Assembly (NCBI GenBank): GCA_016191815.1
Contig: JACPVI010000031.1
Coordinates: 1 to 59,882 of the forward strand
Source of the DNA: Myxococcales bacterium
Lineage (GTDB): Bacteria; Myxococcota; Myxococcia; Myxococcales; Myxococcaceae
DNA: 59,882 bases
Direction of reading: 5' to 3'
Of this stretch, positions 11,034 through 46,580 are shown piece by piece (positions within the stretch are counted from its first letter, which is position 1; each line of letters begins with the position of its first letter). The notes under the pieces are model-generated. The model searched no databases. It had not been told where the DNA came from and worked only from the letters and a program-made list of their open reading frames with translations. Made by a program: the position numbers and the translations under genes.

Positions 11034-11138
11034 CACCCTTGGCCGTGTGCCGCCTCCTTGCAGTCCGCCGCTGCCTCCCGGAGCTTCGGTATTGTCGGGC
11101 GGGCAGAAACGAGCGGGGAGGCGTCGGGCCACTTCGGC

Positions 11139-12613: not shown

Positions 12614-12691
12614 GAGCGCTTGTGTACCCTTGCCGGCGGGCCTTTAGGAAGTGCGCTCGAAACTGGCAGCGGTTCGGGCTAAAGGGCCACC

Positions 12692-13540
12692 ATGCCGATG
12701 AAGCTCGGCCGGTTCGAGCTGCACGAGATCCGCGACGGCTCCTTCGCCCTCGATGGAGGGGCGATGTTCGGGGTGGTGCCCAAGCCGCTCTGGGAGCGCC
12801 GGCTGCCGCCGGACGAGCGAAACCGGGTGCAGCTCGCGCTGCGCTGCCTGTTGATCGTCGACGGCGAGCGGCGGGTGCTGGTGGACGACGGCATCGGCCA
12901 GGTGTGGGACGGCAAGCACCGCGACATCTATGCGATCGATCACTCCGCCCACGACCTCGATCGGGGGCTTCGGCGGGCTGGCCTCGCGCGCGGCGACATC
13001 ACCGACGTGGTGCTCACCCACCTGCACTTCGATCATGCGGGTGGGACCACGAGGTACGAGGGCGGCGAGCTGGTGCTCTCCTTCCCCAACGCCACCTACC
13101 ATCTACAGCGCCGCAACTGGCGGTGGGCGCACCACCCCTCCGAGCGCGACGCGGGCTCCTTTCGGCCGGAGAACTTCCGGCTCCTCGAGCGGAGCGGCCG
13201 CCTCCACCTGCTCGAGGGCCAGACCGAGCTGTACCCGGGGATCCAGCTCTTCGTCTCCGAGGGACACACGGTGGGACTGCAGCTGGTGCGGGTGACCGAC
13301 GGAGACGGTTCGCTGGTGTACTGCGGCGACCTCATCCCCACCACCGCGCACCTGAGGACGGCCTGGGCGATGGGCTATGACCTCTATCCGCTCACGGTGA
13401 TCGAGGAGAAGAAGATGCTCCTCGCCCAGGCGGTGGAGGACGGCTGGTTCCTCTTCTTCGAGCACGATCCCACGGTCGCGGCCTGCATGGTGCGAGACGA
13501 GCACGGGGAGGTCGTGGTGGACCGGCTGGTGGAGCTGTGA
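12692..13540 (+). CDS. MBL-fold metallo-hydrolase
   Basis: 282 residues with the metallo-beta-lactamase metal site THLHFDHAGG (His110, His112, Asp114, His115). Downstream ligands are in SEGHTVGLQLV, VYCGDLIPTTAHL (Asp) and FFEHDPTVAAC (His). Soluble, no signal peptide. The family includes lactonases, glyoxalases and quorum-quenching enzymes; the substrate cannot be inferred. Its stop overlaps the GTG start of the RlmI-like gene by 4 bp (GTGA), so the two are translationally coupled. Confidence 0.85.
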   Translation: MPMKLGRFELHEIRDGSFALDGGAMFGVVPKPLWERRLPPDERNRVQLALRCLLIVDGERRVLVDDGIGQVWDGKHRDIYAIDHSAHDLDRGLRRAGLARGDITDVVLTHLHFDHAGGTTRYEGGELVLSFPNATYHLQRRNWRWAHHPSERDAGSFRPENFRLLERSGRLHLLEGQTELYPGIQLFVSEGHTVGLQLVRVTDGDGSLVYCGDLIPTTAHLRTAWAMGYDLYPLTVIEEKKMLLAQAVEDGWFLFFEHDPTVAACMVRDEHGEVVVDRLVEL

Positions 13541-14718
13541 GGCCGGCGGCGCCGGGAGAGCGCGGCCTGAAGCTCACCCGGCGCGGCACCGAGCGGTGGC
13601 GGCGCGGGCACCCGTGGATCTACGCCTCGGACGTGGAGGAGCGCGCCGGCCTGGAGGGCGGCGAAGTGGTGCGCGTGCTCGACCCGCGCGGCTATTTTCT
13701 GGGCCAGGCCTTCTACTCGAAGAAGTCGAAGATCACCCTCCGCTGGCTGAGCTTCGACGACACTCCGGTCGACGCCGACTTCTTCCGGGCGCGGATCCGC
13801 GCCGCTGACGCCATGCGGCAGGCCGCCCTGCCGGGCGAGACCACCTACCGCGTGGTGCACGCGGAGGCGGACCTGTTGCCGGGGCTGGTGGTGGACCGGT
13901 ACGGCGACTATCTCTCGGCGCAGTTCCTGGTGAAGGGCACCGACGACCGGAAGGAGCTTTTGGCGGACCTGTTGGTCGAGCACTTCCGGTGCAAGGGGCT
14001 GGTGAATCGCTCGGACGTCTCGGTGCGCGCGCTGGAGGGCCTGGAGCCGGAGAAAGGGGTCCTGCGCGGCGAGGTGCCCGGGCCGGCGAGCTACCGCGAG
14101 GGAGAGGTGACGCTGAGGGCGGACCTTCTCTCCGGGCAGAAGACCGGCGCCTTCCTCGATCAGCGGGAGAACCACGTGATGGCCGGGGCCTATGCTTCCG
14201 GAGAGGCGCTGGACTGCTTCGCCTACACTGGTGGGTTCGCGCTCCAGCTCGCCCAGCGGGCGACGAAGGTCACCGCGGTCGAGATCTCCGAGGCAGCGGC
14301 GGCGCAGCTCCGCGCGAACGCGGAGGCGAACGGCCTCTCCAACGTGGAGGTGCTGGTGGCCAACGCCTTCGACTACCTCCATGACGCGGTCGACGAGGGG
14401 CGGCAGCTCGATACCATCGTGCTGGACCCGCCGTCCTTCGCCAAGCACAAGGGGGCGGTGGAGGCGGCGCTGCGCGGGTACAAGGAGATCAACCTCCGCG
14501 CCATGCAACTGCTCAGACCCGGGGGCTTCCTGATCACCGCGAGCTGCACCTACCACGTCGGCGAAGAGCAGTTCGAGCTGATGCTGGAGGACGCGGCGGC
14601 CGACGCCCGGCGCAGGGTGCAGATCGTGGAGAGGCGCGGAGCGGGGAAGGACCACCCGGTGCTGCTCCGCCTGCGCGAGACGCGCTACCTCAAGTGCCTC
14701 GCGCTCCGCGTGCTCTGA
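13537..14718 (+). CDS. rlmI: 23S rRNA (cytosine-C5)-methyltransferase, RlmI-like
   Basis: 393 residues from GTG 13537, which overlaps the upstream TGA. N-terminal PUA-like domain (RRGHPWIYASDVE; GEVVRVLDPRGYFLGQAFYS), then a long insert with VVDRYGDYLSAQF and DQRENH, and the SAM core ALDCFAYTGGFALQLAQRA with motif IV IVLDPPSFAKHKG. The order is that of RlmI, which makes m5C1962 in 23S rRNA. A conserved catalytic Cys is plausible in ITASCTYHVGEEQF. The assignment to RlmI proper rather than a close paralogue is an inference. Confidence 0.85.
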   Translation: MRPAAPGERGLKLTRRGTERWRRGHPWIYASDVEERAGLEGGEVVRVLDPRGYFLGQAFYSKKSKITLRWLSFDDTPVDADFFRARIRAADAMRQAALPGETTYRVVHAEADLLPGLVVDRYGDYLSAQFLVKGTDDRKELLADLLVEHFRCKGLVNRSDVSVRALEGLEPEKGVLRGEVPGPASYREGEVTLRADLLSGQKTGAFLDQRENHVMAGAYASGEALDCFAYTGGFALQLAQRATKVTAVEISEAAAAQLRANAEANGLSNVEVLVANAFDYLHDAVDEGRQLDTIVLDPPSFAKHKGAVEAALRGYKEINLRAMQLLRPGGFLITASCTYHVGEEQFELMLEDAAADARRRVQIVERRGAGKDHPVLLRLRETRYLKCLALRVL

Positions 14719-26771: not shown

Positions 26772-29700
26772 ATGGCTTCAAGCTGGAAACGCCGGCATTT
26801 CTTCGTCGCGGGCCTGCTCGCGGCGGTGCTCGTGGTACTCGTCGCCTCGACCCAGGTCTGTCTCACCGCCTGGTTGAAGTACGGAGTGGCCCTCGGCCGC
26901 TGCCCCGACGGAGACATTCGCCAGACCGTCGAGGTGGAGGCCTTGAGCGTCACTCGCGGGGCAGAGGGCTCCGTCAGAGTCCGCGCCATCGGGCACTACA
27001 CGCTCGGCCCTTCGGACCGGGCGATGACCGTGGCCCTCGAGCGGTTCGAGCCTTCGCTCCTCCTGGTCTCCGCCGGGCAGCAAACGCCGCTCGTGCCGGA
27101 GAAAGGATGGACCGACGACGGGGCCGGGAAGCTCGCTTCGGTCGTCCTCCCCAAGGTGCCCGACGGCGAGTACGTGCTCCGGGCGAGGGTGAAGAGCTCC
27201 CTGGGCGAGTCGAGCCACGACCTGCCGCTGCCCCTCTTCGCGCCCGCGCGAGTGCACGTGATCACCGACCGCCCGCTCTACGAGCCGGGGAACACGGTCA
27301 AGTTCCGCGCGGTGGGGCTCCGGGCGAGGGACCTGGCTCCGCTCGACGGCCGGCCTGGGACGTGGATGGTGATGGACCCTTCCGGCGAGGTGCTGCTCGA
27401 GGAGCTGGCGCCCGCCGGGGAATGGGGCGTCGTCTCGGGCAGCTTCCCGCTCGATCGCGGCGCCGCCACCGGCAACTGGACGGTGCGATGGAGCTCCGGC
27501 GGCGCCTCGGGAGATTCGTCCTTCCGCGTTCAGCCCTTCACCCTCCCCCGCTTCCGGGTGGAGGCAGAGCCAGCAAAGCCCTTCTACGGCCGCCACGAGC
27601 GTCCGGTGCTGCGCGGGGTCGTGCGGTACAGCTCGGGCGCGCCGGTGCCCAAGGCTGCGCTGTCGATTGACTGGAGCGTCGCGGGAGAATGGCCGCCTCC
27701 CACCTCATGGCTCGAGGGAGCGTTGCCCAAGAACGCCGAGGCGGGCGCGAACGGGCGCTTCACCCTGGAGCTTCCCCCGGTGCCGGAGGACTTGCAGGGG
27801 CAAGCCACGCTGTCGGCGCGGATCGCCGCCACCGATCCGTCCGGCGATCGAGTGGAGGGCGGCGCCTCGGTCCTCCTCTCGGAGGATCCGATCCAGGTGT
27901 CGGCGGTCACCGAGCTGGGCGAGGGGCTGGTGCAAGGCTTCAACAATCGCCTCTACCTGCGAGCCACCACCGCGGACGGGCGCGTGCTCGAGGGCGCCCA
28001 CCTCACCGTCAAGCGCGCCTGGGAGCCGAAGGATCCAGGCGTGAACGCCAAGGCCGACGAGGACGGCGTGGCCAGCCTTCAGCTCGATCCGGGCCCGCCC
28101 GTGAACGTGGTCATTCCCCCGGCGCCCTTCCGGCCGCCTCCCCGCGAGCCTGCCGTGGAGCGCGGGGAGGCCATCGACCTGTTCAGCGACGAGGAGCCGC
28201 CGCTGGCGGACCAGGTGGCGATGGAGAAGTGGGACGCCGCGCTCGAGCCCTGCGCGCGCTGGGTGCAGAACGGGTTCGACGAGCTGGTGGTCGGCGTCAG
28301 GGTCGGGGCTGGCGGCGCGGTGACCGCGGTCGCCGCTCCGGCCAACAGGCTTGGAAAGTGCGTGGCGACGGCCCTCTCCGCGCGGAGCCTTCCGCCCGGT
28401 CGCGAGCGGCTCTACTCCGTAGGCCTCGGCTTCCGGGACGACGAGCTGCCCAAGCTGCACGCGGAGGTGGATGGGCTCCCGCTCACGCAGGCGGTGGGAG
28501 ACCCTCCGGAGGCGATCGCACAAGCGCTCCGGGATGCGATCCAGGGACTGCGAGACTGCATCCCGCCGGCCGCCCCCAGCGCGGGGGCGCTGCCGAGGAT
28601 TCTCGAGTGGCGGCTGCGCGCCGGGAGCAAGGAGATCTCGATCGGCTGGGTACGGGCGAAGAACGCGGAGCCGTTTCCTGCATCCGCGCTGGACTGCATG
28701 CAGGCGCGGCTGAGCCGGGTGCCGCTCGCCGATCCGGCACCGGAGGACGGCCTCGGAGTGGCGCGGCTGAGCGTTCAGGCGCCCGAGAAGTACGAGGCGA
28801 TGCGGCCGCAGGCCACCACGATGCTCGGCTACGACTTCGTGGTCACCGCGAGGAGAGGCGATGAGCTGCTCGGGACCACCCGGCTTCGCATGGCTCCCGG
28901 CGCGGTTCCGCCGGTGCGCCTCAGGGCCACGCCGGTGATCGCCAGCCCGGGCGACGCGATCACGGTGGATATCCTCCGTGGGCCGGACTTCTCCGGCGAG
29001 CTTCCGGAGAAGCTCTTCCTCTCCTTCGGCCACCAGTCGCTCGAGGCGAAGGTGGAGGAGAAGACGCGCTCGGCGCAGTTCCAGCTCCCGGCCGGAGCCG
29101 AAGGATGGATGGAGGTGAGCTGGGGCGGGGCGAGGGCGGTGGTGTTCGTGCGGCCGAAGGCCCAGCTTTGGCTCTCCGTCCGCCCGGACCGGGAACGCTA
29201 CGCGCCGGGACAGCTCGCGCATCTTGCGGTGGAGACGCGGGCATCGGGCGCGGGGACTCCTGCGGCGGTGGGACTGTTCGGAATCGACGAAAGCTTGGGC
29301 CAGCTGGTCGCGCTTCCCGGCCCCGACGCGCTCGAGCAGCTCCGGCCGCTGCCCACCGCGACCGCGGCCTTCGGCTCGCTGGACGCGCAGGCGCTCACCA
29401 TGGGGCGGGTGCGAGGAGCCAGCGCCGCCGCGGCCACGGTGGTGCGAGTGACGGCGATTCCCGCGCCGGAGCAGCTCGAGGTTCCGGTCCACGCTCGGGG
29501 CGGAGGGAGCTTCGACCCGCTCATCGAGCTGACCGACCACTTCTACTCGGTGCTCGCCGAGCTGCACGTTCAGACCCGCGCCTGGGAGGCCGGGGCGCCG
29601 GAGGCGGAGAAGATGACGCCGAAGACAATGGCCTCTCTGTGGGAGAAGGCGCTCGACGCGTCCGCCGGCAGGAAGGAGCCGGTCACCGACGCCTTCGGGC

Positions 29701-29834
29701 GGAGGCTCAAGCTGTCGCAGTTGCCGAGCGACCTCCTCGCGCTGACGGACCCGCGGATGGTGGTGGTCCACGGAACGCGGCTGCCGGAGGACGTGGAGAA
29801 CTGGTCGAACTGGGTCGCGAGGGAGACGCCATGA
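26772..29834 (+). CDS. alpha-2-macroglobulin, N-terminal half, with inserted PglI/AgmX-like modules
   Basis: 1020 residues. A basic leader and one transmembrane anchor (FFVAGLLAAVLVVLVAS) precede macroglobulin domains, including an MG2-type segment VHVITDRPLYEPGNTVKFRA near residue 160. Residues about 470-690 do not look like macroglobulin: two Cys-paired modules (ALEPCARWVQ...GKCVATALSARSLPPG near 490-555; LRDCIPPAAP...ALDCMQARLS near 590-655) resemble the C-terminal domain of AgmX/PglI gliding proteins. The MG domains then resume (FVVTARRGDELLGTTRLRMA). It ends without bait region, A2M or thioester domains; these lie in the next gene, whose ATG overlaps this TGA. Predicted periplasmic, inner-membrane anchored. 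Confidence 0.75.
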   Translation: MASSWKRRHFFVAGLLAAVLVVLVASTQVCLTAWLKYGVALGRCPDGDIRQTVEVEALSVTRGAEGSVRVRAIGHYTLGPSDRAMTVALERFEPSLLLVSAGQQTPLVPEKGWTDDGAGKLASVVLPKVPDGEYVLRARVKSSLGESSHDLPLPLFAPARVHVITDRPLYEPGNTVKFRAVGLRARDLAPLDGRPGTWMVMDPSGEVLLEELAPAGEWGVVSGSFPLDRGAATGNWTVRWSSGGASGDSSFRVQPFTLPRFRVEAEPAKPFYGRHERPVLRGVVRYSSGAPVPKAALSIDWSVAGEWPPPTSWLEGALPKNAEAGANGRFTLELPPVPEDLQGQATLSARIAATDPSGDRVEGGASVLLSEDPIQVSAVTELGEGLVQGFNNRLYLRATTADGRVLEGAHLTVKRAWEPKDPGVNAKADEDGVASLQLDPGPPVNVVIPPAPFRPPPREPAVERGEAIDLFSDEEPPLADQVAMEKWDAALEPCARWVQNGFDELVVGVRVGAGGAVTAVAAPANRLGKCVATALSARSLPPGRERLYSVGLGFRDDELPKLHAEVDGLPLTQAVGDPPEAIAQALRDAIQGLRDCIPPAAPSAGALPRILEWRLRAGSKEISIGWVRAKNAEPFPASALDCMQARLSRVPLADPAPEDGLGVARLSVQAPEKYEAMRPQATTMLGYDFVVTARRGDELLGTTRLRMAPGAVPPVRLRATPVIASPGDAITVDILRGPDFSGELPEKLFLSFGHQSLEAKVEEKTRSAQFQLPAGAEGWMEVSWGGARAVVFVRPKAQLWLSVRPDRERYAPGQLAHLAVETRASGAGTPAAVGLFGIDESLGQLVALPGPDALEQLRPLPTATAAFGSLDAQALTMGRVRGASAAAATVVRVTAIPAPEQLEVPVHARGGGSFDPLIELTDHFYSVLAELHVQTRAWEAGAPEAEKMTPKTMASLWEKALDASAGRKEPVTDAFGRRLKLSQLPSDLLALTDPRMVVVHGTRLPEDVENWSNWVARETP

Positions 29835-32203
29835 AACGCGCGGCGATCGTCGTGGTGGTGCTGGGCGGGCTGGTGGTGCTGGTGCTGGTGCTCGGCTCGC
29901 TGTCCCTCGCGGGGCGCGCGAGAGAAAGTTTCGGCTACCGAGCCAAGGGGATGGCCATGGCCGGCGAAATACCTGCGGCCGAGGAGAAGGCGCTTCGGGA
30001 TTTCGGGGCTGACTCCCCGGCAGCGCCTCCGGCGCTTGCAGCGGCGACGCCGGAGCCCGAGCCTCCGCGGGATGAGCTGGAAATCGCCGCCGACGGCTAC
30101 ATGACCGGAAGCAAGCGCATGCTGCTCAAGGCGAAGGTCGGCGGCAAAGGCATGCCCGCGTCCGAGGTCGAAGGCGATCGCGGCGGCGAGGGCCAAGAGG
30201 CGCCCACGCGCTCCTGGTTCCCGGAAACCTTCCTCTTCGAGCCGCTGGTGGTCACCGACCAGGAAGGCCGGGCCAACGTGCCGGTACGAGTGCCCGACCG
30301 CCTCACGCGCTGGAGGGTGCTCGCCCTGGCGCACTCTCGCGCCGGCGCCCAGGCCGGTGCGCTCTCCACCTTCGAAGGCACCCTCCCCGCCTACGTGGAT
30401 CCAGTGGTGCCTCCGTTCCTCACCGCGGGCGACGAGGTGAGGTTGCCGGTGCAACTCGTCAACACCACCGAGACTGACCTCGACCGCACCCTCAAGCTTT
30501 CCGCCGCCGGGGCGAACCTGGCCGCGGCCGGCGGGAGCGTGCGCGTGCCGGCGCAGGGCACGCTGGTGCAGTACGCCGAGCTGAAGGTGGAGCGGCCGGG
30601 GCAGGTGGTGGTGAAGGCCTCGCTGGGCGACACCGACGCCGTGGAGCGCACCATCGAGGTGAAGCCGGCCGGGAGACCTCTTTCGGTGAGCAAGGGCGGG
30701 ACGCTCGCCGCTCCGCGCGAGGTGCAGCTCTCCGGCCCGGCAGATCCGCTTCCGGAGAGCGAGCGGGTGCGGCTGCTGGTGTTTCCCGGGGCGCTGGCGC
30801 TCCTTCGCTCCGAGCTGTCCACCGCCCTGCACCGCGCCGGGACGGCCGACGACGCCTACTCCCTGCTGATGGCCGGAAGGGCGCCGGCCCTGCTCCGTGC
30901 CCTCGGTGACGAGCCGGACCGAGAGGTCCTCCGGAACCTGGCGCTCGTCTCCGGTCAGCGCGCCATCCACCATTCCCGCTCGCCGGACATCTCCAGCGCG
31001 GCCTTGCTCGCCGAGGCAGCGCTCGCCCACCCGGACAATCCGGTGCTCTCGCGCCTGGGCGAACGGTTGGCAGCGATGGTGGCGGGAGCGCAGCTCCCCG
31101 ACGGCACCTGCCAGGGCGGCAACGGCTGGACGCTCCAGCGGCTGCTGGTGGCGACCGCGGACTGCGCCAAGGCGGTCGGGGCGGGGAAGGCCACCGAGGC
31201 GGCGCGGCAGCGATCCACCGGCTTCAACCTGCGCGCCTCCGGCGCTTTCGAGCGAAACGCGGGGAGGATCGACGACGGCTACACTGCGGCGGCCATCCTG
31301 GCGAGCGGCGCCTTGAAGGGTTCGCTCGCCGAGGAGCTGCGCGCCAAGGTCCGCGCGGCCATCGCCGCCCAGCAGGACGGCTCGAAGGTGCTCCAGGCGG
31401 ACGAGGGAGTGGTCCGCGCCGACGGCAGCGTGCCGACTCAGGCCGAGGCCACCGCGCTCGCGGTGCTGGCGCTGGAAGGCGACGCGCAGGCACCGATGGC
31501 TGACCTTGGCACCTCGCTGCTGGCCGGCTACAGCCCTGTCTATGGCTGGGGCGACGGCCGCACCAACCTCGCCTGCATGCGCGCGGTGCTGCAGCTTTTC
31601 AAAGAGCCGGTGCCCTCCAACGTGCGGGTGGTGCTGGAGATGGACGGCAACCCGGTCACCGAGGGCGCGCTCGATCCGTCACGACTCAAGGACGTGGTCG
31701 CTCTGGAGGCGCCCGCTCCGGGCTCATCCGGGATGCACAAGTGGCGAGTGCGCGCGGAGCCCGCGGTGCCCGGGCTCGGATTCTCGCTGACCCTCACCGC
31801 CTATGTGCCCTGGAAGCAGGAGGAGCCCACGGGAGGACTGGACTTGGCGATCGCCTCGCCCACGGAGCTGGCCGTCGGGCGACCGGCGGAGATCTCGCTC
31901 AGCGCCACGGCGCCCGCGGGGATGGCGCTGAAGATTCGCCACTCGCTGCCGGCGGGCGTGCAGCCGGACACGCCAAGTCTGGAGCTGCTGGTGAGCTCCG
32001 GCTCGATCTCCCGCTTCGAGACCGAAGATGGAGCGGTCCAGCTCGAGGTGCCGGCGCGGCAGGCAGGTCAACCCTTCACCGCCAAGTACCGGCTGGTGCC
32101 AACTTTGGCGGGCAAGCTGCACGCCTCGGCGTCGACCATCACGCCGGTGGGACGCCCGGACCTGATGCGTTACGTGGCGCCGGCGACGTGGGTGGTGCGG
32201 TAG
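29831..32203 (+). CDS. alpha-2-macroglobulin, C-terminal half
   Basis: 790 residues from ATG 29831 (ATGA overlap). N-terminal anchor AIVVVVLGGLVVLVLVLGSL, then a Pro/Ala/Glu-rich stretch to residue about 120 sitting where the bait region of macroglobulins lies. Residues about 125-175 are the A2M-domain signature (RSWFPETFLFEPLVVTDQEG; VPDRLTRWRVLALAHS). The helical alpha-toroid follows (ALLAEAALAHPDNPVLSRLG; DDGYTAAAILASGALKG; VPTQAEATALAVLALEG) and a receptor-like beta domain closes it. The thioester motif CxEQ is absent; the region holds GTCQGGNGWTLQ, so trapping must be thioester-independent, as in the short bacterial A2M type. Confidence 0.78.
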   Translation: MKRAAIVVVVLGGLVVLVLVLGSLSLAGRARESFGYRAKGMAMAGEIPAAEEKALRDFGADSPAAPPALAAATPEPEPPRDELEIAADGYMTGSKRMLLKAKVGGKGMPASEVEGDRGGEGQEAPTRSWFPETFLFEPLVVTDQEGRANVPVRVPDRLTRWRVLALAHSRAGAQAGALSTFEGTLPAYVDPVVPPFLTAGDEVRLPVQLVNTTETDLDRTLKLSAAGANLAAAGGSVRVPAQGTLVQYAELKVERPGQVVVKASLGDTDAVERTIEVKPAGRPLSVSKGGTLAAPREVQLSGPADPLPESERVRLLVFPGALALLRSELSTALHRAGTADDAYSLLMAGRAPALLRALGDEPDREVLRNLALVSGQRAIHHSRSPDISSAALLAEAALAHPDNPVLSRLGERLAAMVAGAQLPDGTCQGGNGWTLQRLLVATADCAKAVGAGKATEAARQRSTGFNLRASGAFERNAGRIDDGYTAAAILASGALKGSLAEELRAKVRAAIAAQQDGSKVLQADEGVVRADGSVPTQAEATALAVLALEGDAQAPMADLGTSLLAGYSPVYGWGDGRTNLACMRAVLQLFKEPVPSNVRVVLEMDGNPVTEGALDPSRLKDVVALEAPAPGSSGMHKWRVRAEPAVPGLGFSLTLTAYVPWKQEEPTGGLDLAIASPTELAVGRPAEISLSATAPAGMALKIRHSLPAGVQPDTPSLELLVSSGSISRFETEDGAVQLEVPARQAGQPFTAKYRLVPTLAGKLHASASTITPVGRPDLMRYVAPATWVVR

Positions 32204-32224: not shown

Positions 32225-33604
32225 TCACATCGGCTTCTCCCCCACCGCCACCACGTTGGTCGCCGGCCAAGGAAGAGCCTGGCCGGAGTCGTCGAACAAC
32301 TCGACGGTGCCGCGGTAGCGGTTCTCGGCGATCCAGGGATTCACGTAGGCGCGGATCTCGATCGGCGTGAGGCCCGCGCGCTCGAGCGCCTGGCGGTACC
32401 CGTCGGCGGTGAGCGGGCCGAACTCCTCGTGCACCTCGATGTGCCAGTTGCGGATGTAGTCCTTCTTGCAGAGGAACTCGTTGGCGAGGTGCACCGAGAG
32501 CCGGACCTCCTCGGGCGAGATCCGCTCGTGCGCCGCGCCCTGGCCGCGCTTGAATTCTTCTGCGAACTTCTGGAACCGCTCCTTGGTGCCGGTGTCGAGC
32601 AGCCGCAAGCGGCACACATGATCGCCCGGGCTCACCCCGTCGCGGATCAACAGCCGCCCTCCCGGGCGCAGCTCCTCGCACGCGTTCCCCAGCGCGCGGT
32701 GGATCGCTCCGTGGTCGTAGCCGGAATAGGAGTACAGCTCGTGCCCCACCGAGGAGAGGACGATGGTGCTTGCGCTGCCCGGCTCCAGCAGCCGCTCCGC
32801 GGCATTGCCGAACAGGAATGTCACGTCCTCCGAGGAGTAGTGGTTCTCGTCGCATCGCCTCAGGAACTCGCGGGACAGCTCCACGCCCACGAAGGCCGAG
32901 TCGGGATGCCGGCGCGACAGCTCCACAAGCAGCTTCCCGGTGCCACAGCCCTTGTCGACGATCCTCCCGGGGACGACCCAGGGCGAGAGGTCCTCGAGCT
33001 TCTGGGCGAGGGCCGCGTCCATCTGGGCCCCGTAGCTCGCGAATTCGCGCGCGTGGCCGAGCTCCCCATCGTCGTTGAGGAGCCGCTGCGCGTAGATCGC
33101 CCTCAGCCTTTCGGGGACTCCGTGGCGAAGGTAGCTGGCGACGGTCGAGGCGGCCGCCTCTTCTCGCCAAGCCCGCCCGTCGGCGGCGCGCTGCACCAGC
33201 TCGTGCGGGGTGAGGCCGCGGACCTCGCCCGGCACCACCTGGAAGCCGGCGGCGACGAACAGCTCTTCCACCTCGTGGTTCGAGGTGTACACGCGGCAGC
33301 TTGCCGGCCCCAGCTCGAGCCCCGTCGAGCCGCGGACACAGGCAAGGACGTGATCGACCCACCGCGCGCTCTCGCCGATGTCGTCCACGCGCACCAGCGC
33401 GAACGGCCGGCCGCTCGCCTCCAGCACGGGGCGCAGCATCTCCTCGCGCAGCTCGACCGGAAGGGGGTTCCGACGGGTACCGGAGTGGTCCGCGCTGCTG
33501 AGGACGCAGACGGTCCGCTCCACCCCGGTGCCGGCCAGCGAGGCGATCCAGCGCGCTTGCGCCGCGGTCACCGCGTGGAACCGACCAACGAGAAGGGCGA
33601 TCAC
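32225..33604 (-). CDS. fusion of degenerate NadM-like nucleotidyltransferase and class I SAM methyltransferase
   Basis: 459 residues. Residues 1-172 follow the NadM (NMN adenylyltransferase) pattern: LLVGRFHAVTAAQARWI, VCVLSSADHSGTRRNPLP, VRVDDIGESARWVDHVL, YTSNHEVEELFVAAGF. But the catalytic HxGH is replaced (VTAAQ) and the S/TxxxxR motif is not recognisable, so the domain is probably an inactive ligand-binding version. Residues 205-459 are a Rossmann methyltransferase (IVDKGCGTGKLLVELS; FVGVELSREFL; LRPGGRLLIRDGV). It is the last gene of the NAD-salvage cluster, 193 bp after nrtR; that gap holds only CCCGTC/CCCGGT-rich low-complexity DNA. Substrate unknown. Confidence 0.7.
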   Translation of the reverse strand: MIALLVGRFHAVTAAQARWIASLAGTGVERTVCVLSSADHSGTRRNPLPVELREEMLRPVLEASGRPFALVRVDDIGESARWVDHVLACVRGSTGLELGPASCRVYTSNHEVEELFVAAGFQVVPGEVRGLTPHELVQRAADGRAWREEAAASTVASYLRHGVPERLRAIYAQRLLNDDGELGHAREFASYGAQMDAALAQKLEDLSPWVVPGRIVDKGCGTGKLLVELSRRHPDSAFVGVELSREFLRRCDENHYSSEDVTFLFGNAAERLLEPGSASTIVLSSVGHELYSYSGYDHGAIHRALGNACEELRPGGRLLIRDGVSPGDHVCRLRLLDTGTKERFQKFAEEFKRGQGAAHERISPEEVRLSVHLANEFLCKKDYIRNWHIEVHEEFGPLTADGYRQALERAGLTPIEIRAYVNPWIAENRYRGTVELFDDSGQALPWPATNVVAVGEKPM

Positions 33605-33797
33605 GTGCCGAGTCTACGCAGGGCGGGCTGATCGGTGGGTGCCCAAGCGGGCAAGGCGGGGCGCACGAGTCGCCATCAACTCGCCGTGCCCGCCGGCTCG
33701 TTCCCGTCCCCGTCCCCCATCCCGAGGCCGCACCCGGTCCCGGTCCCGCTCCCGGCATCTCCCAGTTCAGTCCTCGATCCGCTTCACGGGGACCTCG

Positions 33798-34550
33798 CTA
33801 CCTGGATCGGCCGAACCTGTACACCGTGGCCGGCTTCGAGGCGGTGATGCGCTTCCCCGGCGCTTTCTCGATGACCCCGCTCTCCAGCATCCGGTTGAAG
33901 CGCCTCCGGAAGTTGCCGGGGTCCTGTTTCTCTCCGGTGACGATCTCGTGCACCGCCCTGAGCTCCGGGACGGTGAAGGTGAGCGGCACCAGGCTGAAGG
34001 CCACGTCGCTGTACTCCAGCTTGCCCGCCACCCGCCGGAGCGCCGCCCGGACGATCTCCTCGTGGTCGAAGGCGAGGGAGACCTTCCCCAGATTGCGCAT
34101 GAGGAACCAGTCCGCCATCGCAGCGTCCCCGCCCGCCCGGACCATCGGCACCAGGTCCGGCCGGACCAGCGCGAAGTAGGCGACGGTGATCACCCTCATG
34201 CGCGGGTCCCGGTGGGCGCGGCCGAAGGTGTAGAGCTGCTCGAGGTAGACCCACTTCCGGTCCAGCCCGGTCTCTTCCTCTAGCTCCCGCGTCGCCGCAG
34301 CGTCGAGGTCCTCCCCCTGATCCTTCTGCCCGTCCCCTACCCTCACGAAGCCCCCGGGGAGCGCCCACTTCCCCTTGAAAGGGTGCTCGTCCCGCTTGAT
34401 GAGCAGCACCCTCAGCTCCGCGTCGACCACCGTGAGGACCACCAGGTCCACCGCCACCGCCGGACGCGCGTAGTCGCCCGCCTTGTAGCGAGCCAGGAAC
34501 GCCCGCTCCTCGCCGTCCCGCTCGAGCTTCCCGGTCGGAGTTAGAGCCAT
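33798..34550 (-). CDS. nrtR: NrtR-type Nudix-domain transcriptional regulator of NAD metabolism
   Basis: 250 residues. N-terminal Nudix domain (VDLVVLTVVDAELRVLLIKR; KGKWALPGGFVR) with a complete Nudix box, G-x5-E-x7-REL-E-EE-T-GL, ending REVEE-like as ATRELEEETGLD, so residual hydrolase activity is possible although many NrtR have lost it. The C-terminal 80 residues form the winged-helix domain (FTVPELRAVHEIVTGEK; NFRRRFNRMLESGVIEK). NrtR represses NAD salvage genes and is released by ADP-ribose. Here it is the sixth gene of the salvage cluster it probably controls, through the palindrome at 40496-40516. The gap to the vWA gene is 4 bp. Confidence 0.85.
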   Translation of the reverse strand: MALTPTGKLERDGEERAFLARYKAGDYARPAVAVDLVVLTVVDAELRVLLIKRDEHPFKGKWALPGGFVRVGDGQKDQGEDLDAAATRELEEETGLDRKWVYLEQLYTFGRAHRDPRMRVITVAYFALVRPDLVPMVRAGGDAAMADWFLMRNLGKVSLAFDHEEIVRAALRRVAGKLEYSDVAFSLVPLTFTVPELRAVHEIVTGEKQDPGNFRRRFNRMLESGVIEKAPGKRITASKPATVYRFGRSR

Positions 34551-34554
34551 GGTT

Positions 34555-35367
34555 TCAGGGCACGAAGAAGCCGGCGTTGGAGCCCGGCCGGATCCTCGCC
34601 TGGCTGGCGCGGATGGCCGACTGGCTCACCATCTGGAACACCTTCCGCAGCGCGCTCGGGGTGGCGTCCTTCTGCACCGCGATGCAGCCGTCGGGGACGC
34701 CCATGCTCCGGGCCACCTTGTGGAAGTCCACGTCGCTTCCCACCCCCACGAAGGCCAGGATGAACTGCTCGGAGGCGAGCAGGTCCCGGGAGATCTTCGC
34801 GGCGTCGACGGCGGTGCGGCGGGAGCCGACGTCCTCTCCGTCGGTGATCACCACCACCACGCTGCGGACCGGGGTGCCGCCGTCCCGCAGGCGCTGGGCG
34901 TAGGCGACGTTGGCGGCCAGGGCGTCGCACCAGGTGTCGTACAGCCGGGTGGTGCCCGAGCCGCGGTAGTTCCTGGCGTCGAGCCTCACCGCGTCCGTCA
35001 CCGGAACGTAGGAGTGGAGGACGTCCATGTCGCTCGCGAAGGTCCACAGGGCCATCAGCACCGAGTCGCGCTCCTTCGCGCCGGCGAAGGCGTCGGCCAG
35101 CGCGTTCTGGCCGTCGCGCACCGCCTGCTCGAGGCCCCGCTCCGCGATGCTCGAGGAGGCGTCGATCAGCACGGTGATCAGCGTGACGTCCGAGGCCGAG
35201 ATGTCCTCCGCCGCGACGCCCGCCGCGCCGGCGATCACCACCTTCCCCAGGTGGCCGGTGAGCATGCTGGAGGTGGCCGGGCTGATCACTCCGTCGGCCA
35301 CCGCTCCGGCGAAGAGCGACTGGAGCGCGCTTGGGCCGTTGCCGTTGTTTCCGTTGGGCTTGTTCAT
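34555..35367 (-). CDS. von Willebrand factor A domain protein, TerY-like
   Basis: 270 residues. A low-complexity Asn/Gly N-terminus leads into a vWA domain with an intact MIDAS: DASSS (69-73), Thr140 in GSGTTRLYDTW and TDGED (175-179). It is cytoplasmic (no signal peptide). Together with the kinase (36369-38168) and PP2C (38156-39016) encoded nearby it makes the vWA/kinase/PP2C set known as the TerY phosphorylation triad in tellurite/stress loci. 14 bp separate it from the preceding gene and 4 bp from nrtR. Confidence 0.85.
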   Translation of the reverse strand: MNKPNGNNGNGPSALQSLFAGAVADGVISPATSSMLTGHLGKVVIAGAAGVAAEDISASDVTLITVLIDASSSIAERGLEQAVRDGQNALADAFAGAKERDSVLMALWTFASDMDVLHSYVPVTDAVRLDARNYRGSGTTRLYDTWCDALAANVAYAQRLRDGGTPVRSVVVVITDGEDVGSRRTAVDAAKISRDLLASEQFILAFVGVGSDVDFHKVARSMGVPDGCIAVQKDATPSALRKVFQMVSQSAIRASQARIRPGSNAGFFVP

Positions 35368-35381
35368 TTTTTCCTCCGGGG

Positions 35382-36356
35382 TCAGATGCGGATGGGGTCG
35401 GTGGTCTTCACGATGTGCATGCCGGCGCGCTTGAAGTCCTCGATCGCCTGGTCGGCGATGCGCGGGAAGTCGAGGTGCGGCGGCAGCGGGTCGACCGGCG
35501 GCGGCGGCACCGAGCTCATCGCGTCCTCCAGGATCCAGACCTTGTCCGCCAGCGCCGGGGCCGTCTTCTGGATGTGGTCCCGGATGTCCATCAGCGTGGA
35601 GCGCACGCAGTGCGACTTGGCCTCGCCGAAGATGTAGACCCGGTCGTAGTCCATCAGCATCTTGAAGAACGGGGCGTTGAACTCGCCCACCACCTGGCCG
35701 CCGAGCTCGGTCACCTCAGGCGAGAGCACCGAGTAGTTCTCTGTCATCGCGTGGGTACCCTTGGTCTCGAAGTGGGTCTGGTGCTTGCGCGCCGCCGAGT
35801 GGAACACCACCGCCTCCATCAGCGCCGGCACCAGCGCGTGGCCTAGCCCGCCCAGCATCGCGTGGTAGGGCCAGATGGTGAGGACGTACTTCCCGGTCGC
35901 CTCGAGCCTCTTGGTGTACTCGAGGCACTCCTTCGGGTGGGAGATCGGCGTCCAGCGCCCGGAGCGGACCTCCTCGTGGAAGATCGGCGTGAGCGGCGCG
36001 GGGTGCTTCCCGCTCTTGTCGACCCACCAGGCGGGGTGGAAGATCTGGAACACCCGGTGGGTGTCCATCGAGAAGTGCAGGCCGGTGAGCTGGTCGAGGT
36101 TGCGGTAGATCCACCCGATCGCCCGCTGCGCGTCCTCCACCGCGCCGGGCACGAACAGGCTCGCCCCGGGGGTGCAGAACGCCACCTGCATGTCGATGCC
36201 GAAGACCGCGATCCGGAACTTGTCCTGACCCGACGGCTTGATGCCGTGCTTCTTGGCGTACTCCTCCGCCGCGTCCGCCACCATTCCGGCGCGTTCGAGG
36301 TAGACCTCCGGCACCTTCCGGGGATCGTAGAAATCAGGGAGTGGCAGGTTCGACAT
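35382..36356 (-). CDS. isochorismatase-family hydrolase, nicotinamidase-like
   Basis: 324 residues; longer than E. coli PncA (about 210). The Asp-Lys-Cys triad can be read as Asp55 (FGIDMQVAF), Lys199 (FETKGTHAMTENYS) and Cys250 (GEAKSHCVRSTLM). Metal ligands are in SMDTHRVFQIFH (Asp98, His100), and IWPYHAMLGG is the WPxH segment of nicotinamidases. Deamidation of nicotinamide to nicotinate would feed the phosphoribosyltransferase of the same cluster, so nicotinamidase is the likeliest role. The extra N-terminal 45 residues and the insert between metal site and Lys are unusual. Confidence 0.8.
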   Translation of the reverse strand: MSNLPLPDFYDPRKVPEVYLERAGMVADAAEEYAKKHGIKPSGQDKFRIAVFGIDMQVAFCTPGASLFVPGAVEDAQRAIGWIYRNLDQLTGLHFSMDTHRVFQIFHPAWWVDKSGKHPAPLTPIFHEEVRSGRWTPISHPKECLEYTKRLEATGKYVLTIWPYHAMLGGLGHALVPALMEAVVFHSAARKHQTHFETKGTHAMTENYSVLSPEVTELGGQVVGEFNAPFFKMLMDYDRVYIFGEAKSHCVRSTLMDIRDHIQKTAPALADKVWILEDAMSSVPPPPVDPLPPHLDFPRIADQAIEDFKRAGMHIVKTTDPIRI

Positions 36357-36368
36357 GTGGGCCTCCTT

Positions 36369-38168
36369 TCAGACCAACGTGAGCTGGGTGATCTCCTTCG
36401 CGCCGACCACGAAGACCGAGCCTCCGGGGCCCGGCAGTAGCTCCACGCCCGCGCCCACGAAGGGCTGGGTGTCGGTGAAGAGCGTTCCTTCCACCAACCG
36501 TCCCCCGTCGGCGCGCAAGGACAGCAGTCCTTCGTCCGTCGCGCAGACGATCCGCCCGCCCGTGAGCGCCTTGCCCCGCACCGAAGCGAACATCCGGCCA
36601 TCTGCCGGCGCGCCAGACGCCTCGGCGCGGAGGCACCCGTCCTCTCCGAAGAGGACCATCGCGTTCGTCCTGCGCCCGTCCCGCTCCACCCCTAGCGAGA
36701 GCAGAGCGTGCCCGTCATCGAAGACTGCGTCCGCCTCCACGATGCGTCCGCCCGGAGGCGAAAGCTTGAGCATGGCCAGGCCTGGCCTCCCTGCCCGGAA
36801 GAGGAAGAAGACGGCCAAAAGGCCCGCGCGGTAGAAGCCGAGCCCCAGCCGCTCGCCGGCCCGGAGCCACGTCTGCCCCTCGAGGATCCGGCCGATCCGC
36901 GAGCCCGTCGACGAGTCCACCAGCCACTCGCTCTCCGTGCGGTAGCAGGTGGCTGCGCTCGCCGCGAAGACGCTCGAGCTCCCGAACGTCCCGGTGCAGG
37001 CGCGCTCCACGACCTGCCCGCGGAGCACCCGCGCCAGCTTCCCTCCCATTCCCACCCAGGTGGCGGGCCCCGAGAGCGCAAAGCGGACGCCAGGCACCAG
37101 CGCCTCGCGCGTCACCTCGGAGCCGTCCTCGCGCAGCACCACGCCGTCCTGGAGGTAGGCGTAGCGGAGCCCGCCCTGCACCGCCGCGGCGAGGATGCGC
37201 CCGGCCGTCCGGAAGACCACCTTGGCGGAGCAGCGCCCGGAGTAGATGACGGCGTCGCGCGATGCGGCCGCTCCGAGCGCCGCGCACTCCGGACAGGTCG
37301 CCCGCGCGTGTTCCGCTCCGCAGCGGCAGCGGGTCCATCTGATGTCCAAGAGCCGCGGAGGAAACGCGCCGCGCTCGTCCTTCTCGAACACCCGCGAGAA
37401 CCAGTCGAGCACGTCGACCGGAAGCACCCGGTAGTGCACCGCCGCGCGCGGGTACTGCACGTCGGGCCTTAGGATGCTGTGCCTGGCCTCGGCTCGCCGG
37501 AGCGGCGTGGGGTACTTCTTCTGCAGCCCGCCGAACGGGTGCACGTAAAGGAGGCTCGAGAAGAGCATCACCGCGAAGGCGTACCAGTCGGTCCCTTCGC
37601 CAAAGCAGGGCCGCTCGGTGAGATCGACCCCGTACAGCTTGGGATCCAGGAACCGTTCGTGGCCGACGGAGCACGGCAGGCCGCAAAACTGCATCGAGTC
37701 CGCGTCGATGAGGAAGGGCTCTCGTCCGCGGAACAGCACGTTGCCGTCGTTGAGGTCCCCCACCACCACGCCCCGGCCGTGCAAGTCTCCGAGCACGCGG
37801 TGGACGTTGCCGAACAGCGACACTACTTCCTCGTTGGGGACGACTCCCTCCCGCCACTTCCGCTGCGACAGCCGGAAGGCGTCCTCCGCGCCGATCGCCG
37901 CCTTCATCGCGTAACCCAGCACCTGGCCCCTGCGGTCCCGCGCCAGCTCGAGGGGCCCCAAGACCTCGCGCGGCAGCCGGGATGGAAAACGCCGAAGCTT
38001 CTCCAGCTTGTCGCGCCGCACCTTCTCGGCCGCGGGCTGGGCCGGATCCACCGGGTGGAAGATCTTCACCGCCAGGTCGCGCCAGCGGTACACGCGGGCC
38101 TCTCCGCCGACTCCGAGGAGATCGGCGTCCGACAGCCTGGCGCGCTCGCCGCCGATCAGGACATCCAT
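36369..38168 (-). CDS. serine/threonine protein kinase with zinc ribbon, TerY-triad type
   Basis: 599 residues from ATG 38168, overlapping the PP2C gene by 13 bp. The kinase domain has the glycine loop LLGVGGEARVYRW (19-28), Lys35 (LAVKIF), catalytic loop VVGDLNDGNVLF (Asp138, Asn143) and the metal loop LIDADSMQF (Asp155), the DAD variant characteristic of TerY-associated kinases. Just after it a zinc ribbon (CRCGAEHARATCPEC, residues 281-295). Residues 300-599 are a strand-rich, propeller-like region with repeated glycine turns. Predicted cytoplasmic. Substrate unknown; the vWA protein of the same operon is a candidate. Confidence 0.85.
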   Translation of the reverse strand: MDVLIGGERARLSDADLLGVGGEARVYRWRDLAVKIFHPVDPAQPAAEKVRRDKLEKLRRFPSRLPREVLGPLELARDRRGQVLGYAMKAAIGAEDAFRLSQRKWREGVVPNEEVVSLFGNVHRVLGDLHGRGVVVGDLNDGNVLFRGREPFLIDADSMQFCGLPCSVGHERFLDPKLYGVDLTERPCFGEGTDWYAFAVMLFSSLLYVHPFGGLQKKYPTPLRRAEARHSILRPDVQYPRAAVHYRVLPVDVLDWFSRVFEKDERGAFPPRLLDIRWTRCRCGAEHARATCPECAALGAAASRDAVIYSGRCSAKVVFRTAGRILAAAVQGGLRYAYLQDGVVLREDGSEVTREALVPGVRFALSGPATWVGMGGKLARVLRGQVVERACTGTFGSSSVFAASAATCYRTESEWLVDSSTGSRIGRILEGQTWLRAGERLGLGFYRAGLLAVFFLFRAGRPGLAMLKLSPPGGRIVEADAVFDDGHALLSLGVERDGRRTNAMVLFGEDGCLRAEASGAPADGRMFASVRGKALTGGRIVCATDEGLLSLRADGGRLVEGTLFTDTQPFVGAGVELLPGPGGSVFVVGAKEITQLTLV

Positions 38169-39016
38169 GGCCGCTCCTCGATCGCGCCGCGCCGGCGTCG
38201 GATGATCGCCAACGTGGTGTCGTCGTGAAGGCGCCGGTTCAGCTCGCCGATCACCCACAGGCGCTTCTGTAGGAGAGAGGGGTTGCGCAGCCAGCCGGGC
38301 TCGGCGATCAACTCGGCAAGCCCGCCCTGCCGATCGCCGCTCCGCAGCGGCTCGTCGGCGCGGGCGATCAACTCCGTCACGCCGTCGGTGGCGATCGCCA
38401 GCGAGTCCACCTCCTCGGTGGGGACGAACAGGTGATGCTCGGGACCGGCGCAGCTCCCCTCCGAGTCCACCGCCTCGGGAACCAGCCGGTAGCCGAGGTA
38501 GCGAGGCGCGTTCTTTGGCCCGGCGTCGAGGATCGTGACTCTGCCGTTCAGGGAGAAGACCCCGTCGCCTACCCCGAACACCATCGCCCTGCGCTCGTCG
38601 ACCACCGCGCAGAGGAAAGAGAACAGGAGGAAGTCCTGCACCGTGGCGGGCATCGCCGAAGCAGCGGGGGAGAGTCCTTGGGCCACTAGGCGCAGGTATT
38701 CCAACAGCCCGCCCGTCGCCGACTCGACCAGCGAGGGGGCGACTCCCCCATCGCGGCGCGCGAGCTCGGCCGTCCAGGTCGCCAAGTAGGCCGCCGCCAG
38801 ATTGGCGCCGACCTCGCTGTGCCGGCCCGAAGAGCACCCGTCGGTCACCACCGCGACCAGAAGGCCGTCCTCGGCGTGGAGCGCGATCCCGTCCTGGCAG
38901 CTCCGGCCGAGCCGCGCGTGCTCTCGTCCTTGCACCGAACCCGCCGCCATCGCCAGCGCGTCGGAGAGCTTGGGTCCCGCCGCGATCGCCAAGAGCTTGT
39001 GTCCCAACTCGCTCAC
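38156..39016 (-). CDS. PP2C-like protein phosphatase of the NAD-salvage cluster
   Basis: 286 residues of the divergent PP2C_2 group. Motifs: GRSCQDGIALH, VVTDGCSSGRHSEVGANLAA, VFGVGDGVFSLNG, LAIATDGVTEL and DDTTLAIIRRRR; the acidic metal ligands are kept although DG.G.H is replaced by DGCSSG. It starts in the stop of the NAPRT gene (ATGA) and its end overlaps the kinase gene by 13 bp, so kinase and phosphatase are made in step. Likely reverses the kinase on the vWA or another operon protein. Confidence 0.85.
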   Translation of the reverse strand: MSELGHKLLAIAAGPKLSDALAMAAGSVQGREHARLGRSCQDGIALHAEDGLLVAVVTDGCSSGRHSEVGANLAAAYLATWTAELARRDGGVAPSLVESATGGLLEYLRLVAQGLSPAASAMPATVQDFLLFSFLCAVVDERRAMVFGVGDGVFSLNGRVTILDAGPKNAPRYLGYRLVPEAVDSEGSCAGPEHHLFVPTEEVDSLAIATDGVTELIARADEPLRSGDRQGGLAELIAEPGWLRNPSLLQKRLWVIGELNRRLHDDTTLAIIRRRRGAIEERPWMS

Positions 39017-40458
39017 CTGGGGCCTCCGAAGGACTGGAGCCGGATCGCCTCCACCAGTGCCTGCGTCGCCGGCGAGAGCGCTACGGTGAGGTGCTCGGGC
39101 GGTATCCGCCGGGCGAGATCGAAGGAGGCGGGCTCGGTTGCGCTCCCGGTCAGGAGGCAGTAACCCTTCGGGGGCACCTCGCCCTCCTGTCCGATGACTC
39201 CGTAGGGGCCATCCCCCGAGAGCCGCCGGAACAGGACCGGCCTGCCCGGGACGCTCTGCTTCCCCGAGCCCGCCTCGTCGCCGAACTTCATCGTCGGCCG
39301 CGACCCGGTCTGGCTTAGCTTGTAGACGGCCGCCACCCGGTCGCGGGTGAGCGAGCCGCCCATGGTGGCGGCGACCAGGTAGCCGCCGTACCCGTAGAAC
39401 TGCTCCTCCGGGCGCCAGCCCACTTGCTGCCGCAGCTCCTCGAACCTGCGGGTCTGCGTGGCGTCGAAGCCATCCTCGAGGATCTGCACCGGGCGGATGC
39501 CGCGCTCCTTCGCCAGCGAGGCCGCGTGGAGGTACTGAGCCACCTTGTCTCCAGAGTCGTAGCGAATGGAGTCCCCCCGCCCCGGCTCCTCGGCGATGAG
39601 CTTTAGGGCGGTGGGGATTCCCGAGCGCACGGTGTCGAAGGTGTCGAGCAAGTAGCTCGAGCGCTGCGGCCTCCGCTCGCGCATCGCCCGGAACGCTCCC
39701 TCATCCGAGCCGTAGCGCTGCACGTGCTCGTGGCCCATCGTCCCCACCGGGACCATGCCCAGCTCCCGCGCCAAGAGGACGTTGCTCGTCTTCACCACGC
39801 CCGCCTCGCGGCAGCCCTCGAGAGCCAGCCGGTGCTGGGAGGCGCAGGTGGCGGCGCGCATTCCCACCTCGAAGACGCGCCGGCCGTCGCCGACGAGCCC
39901 CACCAGCCCACCCGCCCTCTCCCTCACGCGCGAGCGGTAGCCGCCGGAATCCACCGAGATTCGCGGCGGGCGAACCCCGACCGCCTCCAGGGCCTCGAGG
40001 GCGACAGAGCGCTGCTCATCGCAGGTGACGGTGCCGAGCTCCGCCTCCAGCCGCTCCGGACTCGTGAGCGCCAGCGTGGCCACCTGGATTCGATAGTTGA
40101 GCTGCAACACCAGCGGCTCGAGCCAGGAAACCAAGGCCGACGGACCGGTCACCGAGAAGACCGGCTCCCGCGGCAGGAACGCCGCGCCTTTCGGCAGCGC
40201 TTGGATGCAAAGGCCTTCGCTCCGGACGATCGCCGCCTTGAAGCCGGCTCCCATCTCGTACTCGTGCGCCGCCAGGCAGGCGTATTCCTCAGGCGCAGGC
40301 GAGGGGAGCAGCTTGCGCACCTCCGCCTCCACGTCGAAGGGTAGAAGCTGCGGCCCGCCGCGGCGGTGGACGTAGTGGAAGGTCTCCACCCTCAGCGGCC
40401 AGCCCGCCTCCGCCATGCTGAACTTGTAACCGTCCGTCGCGAGGAGGGAGCTGCCCAT
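39013..40458 (-). CDS. nicotinate phosphoribosyltransferase
   Basis: 481 residues from ATG 40458, with AGGAAGG seven bases upstream. Begins LLATDGYKFSMAEAGWP, the family start. Active-site features: ISVDSGGYRSR-type phosphate loop, VFEVGMRAATCASQHRL, the histidine loop VPVGTMGHEHVQRYG (His243), LLDTFDTVRSGI and SIRYDSGDKVAQYL. The enzyme converts nicotinate and PRPP to NaMN, the committed step of the Preiss-Handler pathway. It is the first gene of a minus-strand operon with an isochorismatase that could supply nicotinate. Close homology to NAMPT was considered but the TDGYKFSM start and GTMGH loop fit NAPRT better. Confidence 0.85.
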   Translation of the reverse strand: MGSSLLATDGYKFSMAEAGWPLRVETFHYVHRRGGPQLLPFDVEAEVRKLLPSPAPEEYACLAAHEYEMGAGFKAAIVRSEGLCIQALPKGAAFLPREPVFSVTGPSALVSWLEPLVLQLNYRIQVATLALTSPERLEAELGTVTCDEQRSVALEALEAVGVRPPRISVDSGGYRSRVRERAGGLVGLVGDGRRVFEVGMRAATCASQHRLALEGCREAGVVKTSNVLLARELGMVPVGTMGHEHVQRYGSDEGAFRAMRERRPQRSSYLLDTFDTVRSGIPTALKLIAEEPGRGDSIRYDSGDKVAQYLHAASLAKERGIRPVQILEDGFDATQTRRFEELRQQVGWRPEEQFYGYGGYLVAATMGGSLTRDRVAAVYKLSQTGSRPTMKFGDEAGSGKQSVPGRPVLFRRLSGDGPYGVIGQEGEVPPKGYCLLTGSATEPASFDLARRIPPEHLTVALSPATQALVEAIRLQSFGGPR

Positions 40459-40479: not shown

Positions 40480-40508
40480 AGTGTAACAACACAATATAGA
40501 GTCGTCAA
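40480..40508 (-). promoter_or_regulatory. sigma70-type promoter of the NAD-salvage operon
   Basis: On the minus strand: -35 TTGACG (40503-40508), 17 bp spacer, -10 TACACT (40480-40485). The AGGAAGG ribosome-binding site follows at 40466-40472 and ATG at 40458, giving a leader of about 15-20 nt. The region is an AT-rich island in otherwise GC-rich DNA. Confidence 0.7.
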
Positions 40509-40516
40509 GACTCTAT
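40496..40516. promoter_or_regulatory. perfect inverted repeat over the -35, candidate NrtR operator
   Basis: Arms ATAGAGTC and GACTCTAT separated by GTCAA (plus strand) form a perfect 8+8 dyad that covers the -35 element. A repressor bound here would block RNA polymerase. The operon's own NrtR is the obvious candidate; NrtR operators differ between lineages, so sequence alone cannot confirm it. Confidence 0.65.

Positions 40517-43010: not shown

Positions 43011-46580
<3,570 letters not shown>

Follow-up and report, generated by a model that had tools for sequence, protein, structure and literature searches.

A nicotinamidase-like hydrolase linked to a kinase/PP2C/vWA triad and to NAD-salvage genes in myxobacteria, other bacteria and large phages

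The TerY-P triad was defined as a vWA protein encoded together with a PP2C-type phosphatase and a Ser/Thr kinase that carries a C-terminal zinc ribbon or OB-fold (PMC11090510). For the triad YegI/PphC/YegL of E. coli it was reported that YegI autophosphorylates and that PphC dephosphorylates YegI, and no inducing condition was found (PMC13232886). The NrtR family was described by Rodionov in 2008, as cited in PMC9503650. The supply of nicotinamide adenine dinucleotide (NAD+) by phages was attributed to NadV/NadM/NadR of jumbo phages and to NARP1 (PMC7824862, PMC9503650, PMC12774641). Here, we describe an operon of a Myxococcales bacterium (assembly GCA_016191815.1) in which a kinase/PP2C/vWA triad is encoded together with CysH, a nicotinamidase-like cysteine hydrolase, a nicotinate phosphoribosyltransferase (NAPRT)-like protein and an NrtR-type regulator. 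The stretch analyzed, termed the window, comprises positions 1-59,882 of contig JACPVI010000031.1 on the forward strand (59,882 nucleotides in full), and all coordinates refer to it.

The six genes lie on the minus strand from 40458 down to 33798. They encode a divergent NAPRT-like protein of 481 amino acids (39013-40458), a PP2C-type Ser/Thr phosphatase (38156-39016), a Ser/Thr-kinase-like protein of 599 amino acids with a zinc ribbon and a long C-terminal region (36369-38168), CysH with 324 amino acids (35382-36356), a vWA protein (34555-35367) and the NrtR-type Nudix/winged-helix regulator (33798-34550). A preliminary description of the window had noted these genes as one run with tiny gaps or overlaps, and this was borne out by translation of the minus strand: the NAPRT-like and PP2C genes overlap by 4 bp and the PP2C and kinase genes by 13 bp, while gaps of 12, 14 and 4 bp separate kinase from CysH, CysH from vWA and vWA from NrtR, respectively. 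The NAPRT-like gene starts with an ATG at 40458, with an upstream in-frame TTG at 40494.

Not all members of this run are equally constant. By gene neighborhood, the conserved core consists of CysH, vWA, PP2C and kinase, whereas NAPRT and NrtR often accompany it but vary, so that the gene set proposed as a linked unit stands for the core and has to be loosened for the two others. Among 98 related genomes, 48 kinase homologues were found, and CysH is encoded on the same contig for all 48, within 1 kb for 46 and within 250 bp for 42 of these. Complete NAPRT-PP2C-kinase-CysH-vWA operons are present in 13 relatives with 36-81% identity, and four more are cut by contig ends. Genomes of the Myxococcus type hold two units, a triad-free NAPRT-CysH unit, often followed by NrtR, and a separate triad operon, which reads NrtR-PP2C-kinase-CysH-vWA in all ten second loci examined. 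Since these units occur separately there, the operon in the window looks like a combination of both.

For a wider view, 84,980 genomes were scanned, yielding at least 577 CysH relatives, and the best 80 of these were examined for a full triad, i.e., all three of vWA, PP2C and kinase no more than 9 kb from CysH, a distance also used for the viral scan that started from CysH. With the first profiles, a full triad was found for 18 of these best 80, belonging to Myxococcota, Cyanobacteria and metagenome-assembled genomes (MAGs) labeled as Woesebacteria, Parcubacteria and Falkowbacteria, where taxon labels of loci on single contigs are possibly binning errors; a cyanobacterial isolate with full triad and CysH is Nodosilinea nodulosa PCC 7104. 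The remainder of the best 80, mainly from Cyanobacteria and Chloroflexi, carry CysH without a full triad. In this cyanobacterial and chloroflexal branch (loci L107-L157) CysH is mostly triad-free and some copies lie beside NrtR or KptA, showing that the nicotinamidase-like CysH family has wider roles. A further arrangement was observed on the 816-kb plasmid NZ_LR594690.1 of Variovorax sp. WDL1, where an NAD/ADP-ribose island (7529-13773) encodes an NrtR-like Nudix protein, CysH, vWA, a macro domain, a nucleoside 2-deoxyribosyltransferase and an NAD kinase, and lacks kinase and PP2C.

The same core is found in very large phages, which is the main point beyond what the window itself reveals. A viral scan with the single CysH sequence of the window gave no match and an alignment of the family was needed; 80 viral contigs from IMG/VR were then collected with the CysH alignment and 80 with the kinase, 50 of the latter being new. 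Of the contigs found by CysH, 70 of 80 encode vWA, PP2C and kinase within the distance given above, and the clustered triad genes are all on the CysH strand. Conversely, CysH is encoded on 73, PP2C on all 80 and vWA on 75 of the contigs found by the kinase, and CysH is present on 44 of the 50 that were absent from the CysH-found set. The core is also encoded, whole or in part, by three deposited genomes of huge phages (462-595 kb). In 21 large phage records, a terminase profile was matched in 14, NAPRTase in 14 and NAD synthase (NadE) in 17. Near the core, a subset of the phage and MAG loci encodes NadE (PF02540), NAPRTase (PF04095/PncB), NadD-like proteins, NrtR, NADAR, KptA, RNA ligase or RlaP. 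On one contig (L225), a stretch of about 10 kb encodes CysH, vWA, PncB, NadE, PP2C, a NadD-like protein, kinase and NrtR, and in another (L181) the PncB near the core scores above the TIGR01514 cut-off. For 17 of 77 viral loci, KptA, RNA ligase or RlaP is encoded at a distance of up to 10 kb. An enrichment of NAD and RNA-repair genes near the phage core is suggested rather than proven by these counts, as a matched control set of large phages was not included; the link between triad and CysH is independent of it. On a human gut contig (MT837596.1, 2255-5364), a 483-amino acid protein that appears TROVE/vWA-like by eye is encoded directly before CysH-vWA-PP2C-kinase, and a link to RNA quality control is possible for this neighbor.

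Across phyla and phages the core link is kept at 30-40% protein identity and in both search directions. Genome comparison thus shows that CysH is inherited jointly with a kinase-phosphatase pair of the YegI/PphC type and a vWA protein with a metal ion-dependent adhesion site (MIDAS), all encoded on the same strand and mostly no more than a few hundred bases apart. In a FastTree phylogeny of 198 CysH proteins, which has several long branches and an unplaced root, members linked to the triad are represented in each of the deep branches, and phage proteins form clades of their own and are also found within bacterial clades. This suggests an old association of CysH and triad with exchange between phages and bacteria.

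The enzyme at the center of this core was assessed by profile, structure and residue comparisons. CysH of the window has no Pfam family match on its own, the isochorismatase-type family PF00857 included, and is therefore labeled nicotinamidase-like; PF00857 matches six of 17 CysH family members with E-values up to 0.01. The profile built from these 17 members and compared with the PDB ranks nicotinamidases first, namely Pnc1 (1.1e-13), the Acinetobacter baumannii enzyme (2.5e-10) and M. tuberculosis PncA (2.8e-9). A structure model based on an alignment of 22 family members reached a predicted local distance difference test score (pLDDT) of 95.4, compared to 39 for single-sequence prediction. 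Its best Foldseek matches are nicotinamidases (2wta, 3.4e-12), and VIA-align superimposed it on the nicotinamidases Pnc1 and those of Drosophila and A. baumannii with Z-scores of 22.2 to 21.4 and 2.4-2.7 Å over 205-211 residues. From myxobacteria to phages, the family keeps the catalytic residues D55, K199 and C250 as well as the metal-binding residues D98, H100 and H165 with no or hardly any variation. Because profile, predicted fold, catalytic and metal-binding residues agree, CysH is likely active as nicotinamidase.

The intact active sites of the triad proteins reported for the window hold across about 100 relatives per family. The kinase, although weak in Pfam, keeps G21-G22-E23, K35, D138, N143 and D155 and has a zinc ribbon (C281-C295), a pattern present in 26 of 35 bacterial and 14 of 70 viral kinases. 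The phosphatase matches PP2C_2 (PF13672, 1.6e-15) and retains D42, D59-G60, D151, D211 and D266, with metal-binding Asp residues 100% conserved. The vWA protein matches PF00092 (2.5e-8) and has a complete MIDAS (D69-x-S71-x-S73, T140, D176); its C-terminal residues S248, S250 and S255 are 95% conserved, are also found in YegL and represent a candidate phosphorylation site. When compared with YegI, PphC and YegL alone among E. coli proteins, the family profiles gave 109 bits for YegI and 55 bits for PphC. The set shows the TerY-P architecture, with vWA, PP2C and kinase encoded together and a zinc ribbon in the kinase. The assignment to the TerY defense systems of PADLOC was rejected, as PADLOC TerY models do not match the window proteins even at an E-value of 10; YegL itself matches a PADLOC TerY model at 0.03 only. 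The triad is therefore called TerY-P-like rather than a TerY-P defense system, and the preliminary designation as TerY-type holds for architecture and for the homology to YegI and PphC, with a weak match to YegL, but not for the PADLOC models.

Myxobacteria join this core to NrtR, to a divergent NAPRT or to both, and a conserved palindrome overlaps the -35 element of the NAPRT promoter. The NAPRT-like protein is matched by NCBIfam as the sole family library, without a Pfam match; TIGR01513 gives 108.8 bits (2.9e-31) compared to a cut-off of 297.4, and as the score of the curated NAPRT equivalog is not reached, the protein is called NAPRT-like. It resembles the NAPRTs 4yub and 2f7f in the PDB, and a genome search found its gene as the sole NAPRT-family gene in its own genome. 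The NrtR protein matches NUDIX (PF00293, 63.7 bits, 2.4e-17) and NrtR_WHD (PF21906, 47.6 bits, 1.9e-12), both above the gathering score, and NrtR-like 3gz5 in the PDB (2.8e-29), and it scores 180 bits with the NCBIfam equivalog NF050029, below its cut-off of 400. Upstream of the NAPRT-like gene lies the palindrome ATAGAGTCTTGACGACTCTAT with 8-bp arms (40496-40516, minus strand), a putative NrtR operator that covers the -35 element of a sigma-70-like promoter TTGACG-17-TACACT (40480-40508, minus strand). The 9.1-kb region contains two promoter-like sites, compared to 0.2 in shuffles. In the 6.77-Mb genome the operator core AGAGTNNTGNNNACTCT has a single match, which is weak evidence alone as about one chance match is expected. 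Its position carries more weight: allowing up to three mismatches, 24 of 35 NAPRT operons of the window and its relatives have the operator between -53 and -65, compared to 2.4% of random 203-nucleotide stretches, a count to be read in the light of the shared ancestry of the relatives and of the TTGAC of the pattern doubling as -35 element. From established knowledge of this family, we infer that NrtR binds the palindrome.

Taken together, we propose, with a probability of about one half, that the operon constitutes an NAD-salvage module under the control of NrtR, in which kinase, phosphatase and vWA protein gate the nicotinamidase step, and that large phages keep this module to sustain NAD+. 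A drop of NAD or a rise of ADP-ribose, a product of NAD breakdown, would release NrtR from its operator, leading to expression of the operon. CysH would deamidate nicotinamide to nicotinate, which NAPRT would convert to nicotinate mononucleotide, and NAD would then be formed via NadD and NadE (Preiss-Handler route). Kinase and PP2C would set the phosphorylation of a target within the module, which may be the vWA protein at its C-terminal serines, CysH, or the kinase itself as in YegI/PphC, and salvage could thereby be switched faster than by transcription. In large phages the core, often together with PncB, NadD, NadE, NrtR and NAD-using RNA-repair enzymes, would sustain NAD+ and repair during infection, and it possibly counters NAD-draining defenses. 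The earlier proposal that the triad is linked to NAD salvage is supported, as NrtR, NAPRT, NadD and NadE recur around the core of nicotinamidase and triad; within this link, the triad may sense NAD, control the nicotinamidase or respond to an NAD-draining stress.

Several observations weigh against this proposal. CysH is Pfam-silent alone and about 120 residues longer than PncA, and other amidases sharing its fold still reach Z-scores of 15-17 with VIA-align. The NAPRT-like protein falls well short of the NAPRT cut-off, the vWA profile gives YegL 15 bits only, and the operator was searched for upstream of NrtR-first operons and not found there. Most genome loci of Cyanobacteria and Chloroflexi with more distant CysH have no triad nearby, meaning that CysH can work without it. 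In phages another NAD gene lies within 10 kb in 25 of 77 loci, and many loci are without one.

Some of these points would fit a module in which CysH and the NAPRT-like protein produce or degrade a signal other than NAD, for instance a modified nicotinoyl or base nucleotide, for the triad to read, as proposed for the phosphoribosyltransferases of Ter operons, which were described to make nucleoside-like signals (PMC7824862). The low NAPRT score and the extended, Pfam-silent CysH branch are in line with this idea; however, the top structural matches are nicotinamidases, CysH keeps the metal-binding and catalytic residues, and standard PncB, NadD and NadE are encoded beside the same core in phages and MAGs, so that a non-NAD signal appears unlikely. 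Quite unlikely in our assessment is a TerY-P-type conflict system acting in defense or superinfection exclusion, in which the triad would sense infection and the NAD enzymes would serve as effector or as protection from NAD-draining partners of the system itself. The homology of the triad class to YegI/PphC, the reported occurrence of TerY-P triads with restriction systems and of TerY-P-like modules as stand-alone antiphage systems (PMC11090510), and the NADAR and RNA-repair genes in phage neighborhoods speak for it. Against it, no nuclease or toxin effector was recognized in the recurrent neighbor clusters that were annotated, which are part of all clusters, the PADLOC models are silent, and the module is vertically stable in the bacterial family and carried by phages themselves.

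The RNA-repair genes also raise the notion that the module serves RNA repair, supplying NAD for 2'-phosphate removal of the KptA type and similar reactions, with the switch answering RNA damage. Its basis are the 17 viral loci mentioned above, assigned by Pfam, but such genes were found neither in the myxobacterial operons nor in the majority of phage loci, RNA-repair genes are present in large phages anyway and the counts have no matched control, leaving this explanation with a slim chance. An accidental neighborhood in a gene-dense genome is of negligible probability. Short intergenic gaps alone are, as general knowledge has it, common in bacteria, but the preliminary description had held that rare co-occurrence in other genomes, together with missing co-transcription, would mark the link as accidental, and the neighborhood search across relatives, other phyla and phages found it strongly conserved instead, at the identities and in both directions stated above. 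This refutes accident.

The run had also been described to continue into a pseudo-NadM/methyltransferase gene (32225-33604), in whose product a NadM-like nucleotidyltransferase N-domain without HxGH motif (GRFHAVTAAQ) is fused to a class I methyltransferase. This membership was rejected: 193 bp separate the gene from NrtR, and in 13 close relatives (55-65% identity) it is a separate gene, at a distance of about 15-20 kb or on a different contig, and in no relative does it lie within the operon. Given these other locations, the gene does not belong to the unit. Elsewhere in the window, the plus strand at 26772-32203 contains two adjoining frames that by eye resemble halves of an alpha-2-macroglobulin-type protein, an MG2-rich half followed by a membrane-anchored A2M half. 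On the minus strand, 43011-46580 encodes a 1189-amino acid protein whose N-terminus by eye resembles that of a lipoprotein; numerous repeats of the type CN(G/S)xDDDCDGxTDEG, which look calcium- or metal-binding, precede a part that by eye is beta-propeller-like.

The role of YegI/PphC/YegL-type triads has been unknown so far, and a close link in both directions to a single enzyme whose substrate can be assayed makes the function of such a triad directly testable. The findings also point to a large investment of very large phages in the supply of NAD and suggest that this supply is under post-translational control. We tentatively consider the module as undescribed and common to large phages and diverse bacteria, with a kinase/PP2C/vWA switch controlling Preiss-Handler-type regeneration of NAD+ from the nicotinamidase step; it would be distinct from NARP1 and NadV/NadM and would be the first metabolic target of YegI/TerY-P-type triads. 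The parts are of known kinds and the combination is without earlier description in the open literature searched. In agreement with the preliminary description, which knew of no system with this exact set, no report of a nicotinamidase or NAPRT joined with vWA, PP2C and kinase was found in open full-text literature, an earlier report elsewhere being possible; the literature searched included a survey of viral NAD systems (PMC9503650) and jumbo-phage surveys (PMC7824862, PMC13282480).

Compared to PncA and Pnc1, CysH shares the fold (Z about 22), the D/K/C catalytic residues and the D/H/H metal ligands, but it carries an N-terminal extension and inserts (324 compared to about 180-220 amino acids), has no Pfam match alone and is tied to a kinase-phosphatase pair. 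As in described NrtR regulons of NAD salvage, NrtR is encoded with NAPRT and nicotinamidase genes and a palindrome lies over the promoter, whereas the unit in the window includes a phosphorylation triad and has a putative operator of its own (AGAGT-N7-ACTCT); no earlier report of such a regulon was found. With TerY-P and YegI/PphC/YegL, the triad has in common that zinc-ribbon kinase, PP2C and MIDAS vWA are encoded together; it differs from them in that its partners are NAD-salvage genes and an enzyme of nicotinamidase type, CysH, instead of Ter, restriction or CoCoNuT genes, and most phage kinases of the CysH-linked core lack the zinc-ribbon pattern. In the passages searched, PMC7824862, PMC9503650 and PMC12774641 make no mention of a nicotinamidase or of the triad. 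NARP1 and NARP2 are characterized by Adps plus Namat or by NAMPT plus NMNAT, and the enzymes found near the core are of PncA, PncB, NadD and NadE type. Like NadV/NadM/NadR and NARP1, the phage core would represent a phage-encoded upkeep of NAD+, but unlike these it combines Preiss-Handler-type enzymes, namely the nicotinamidase-like CysH, PncB, NadD and NadE, with a kinase, a PP2C-type phosphatase and a vWA protein.

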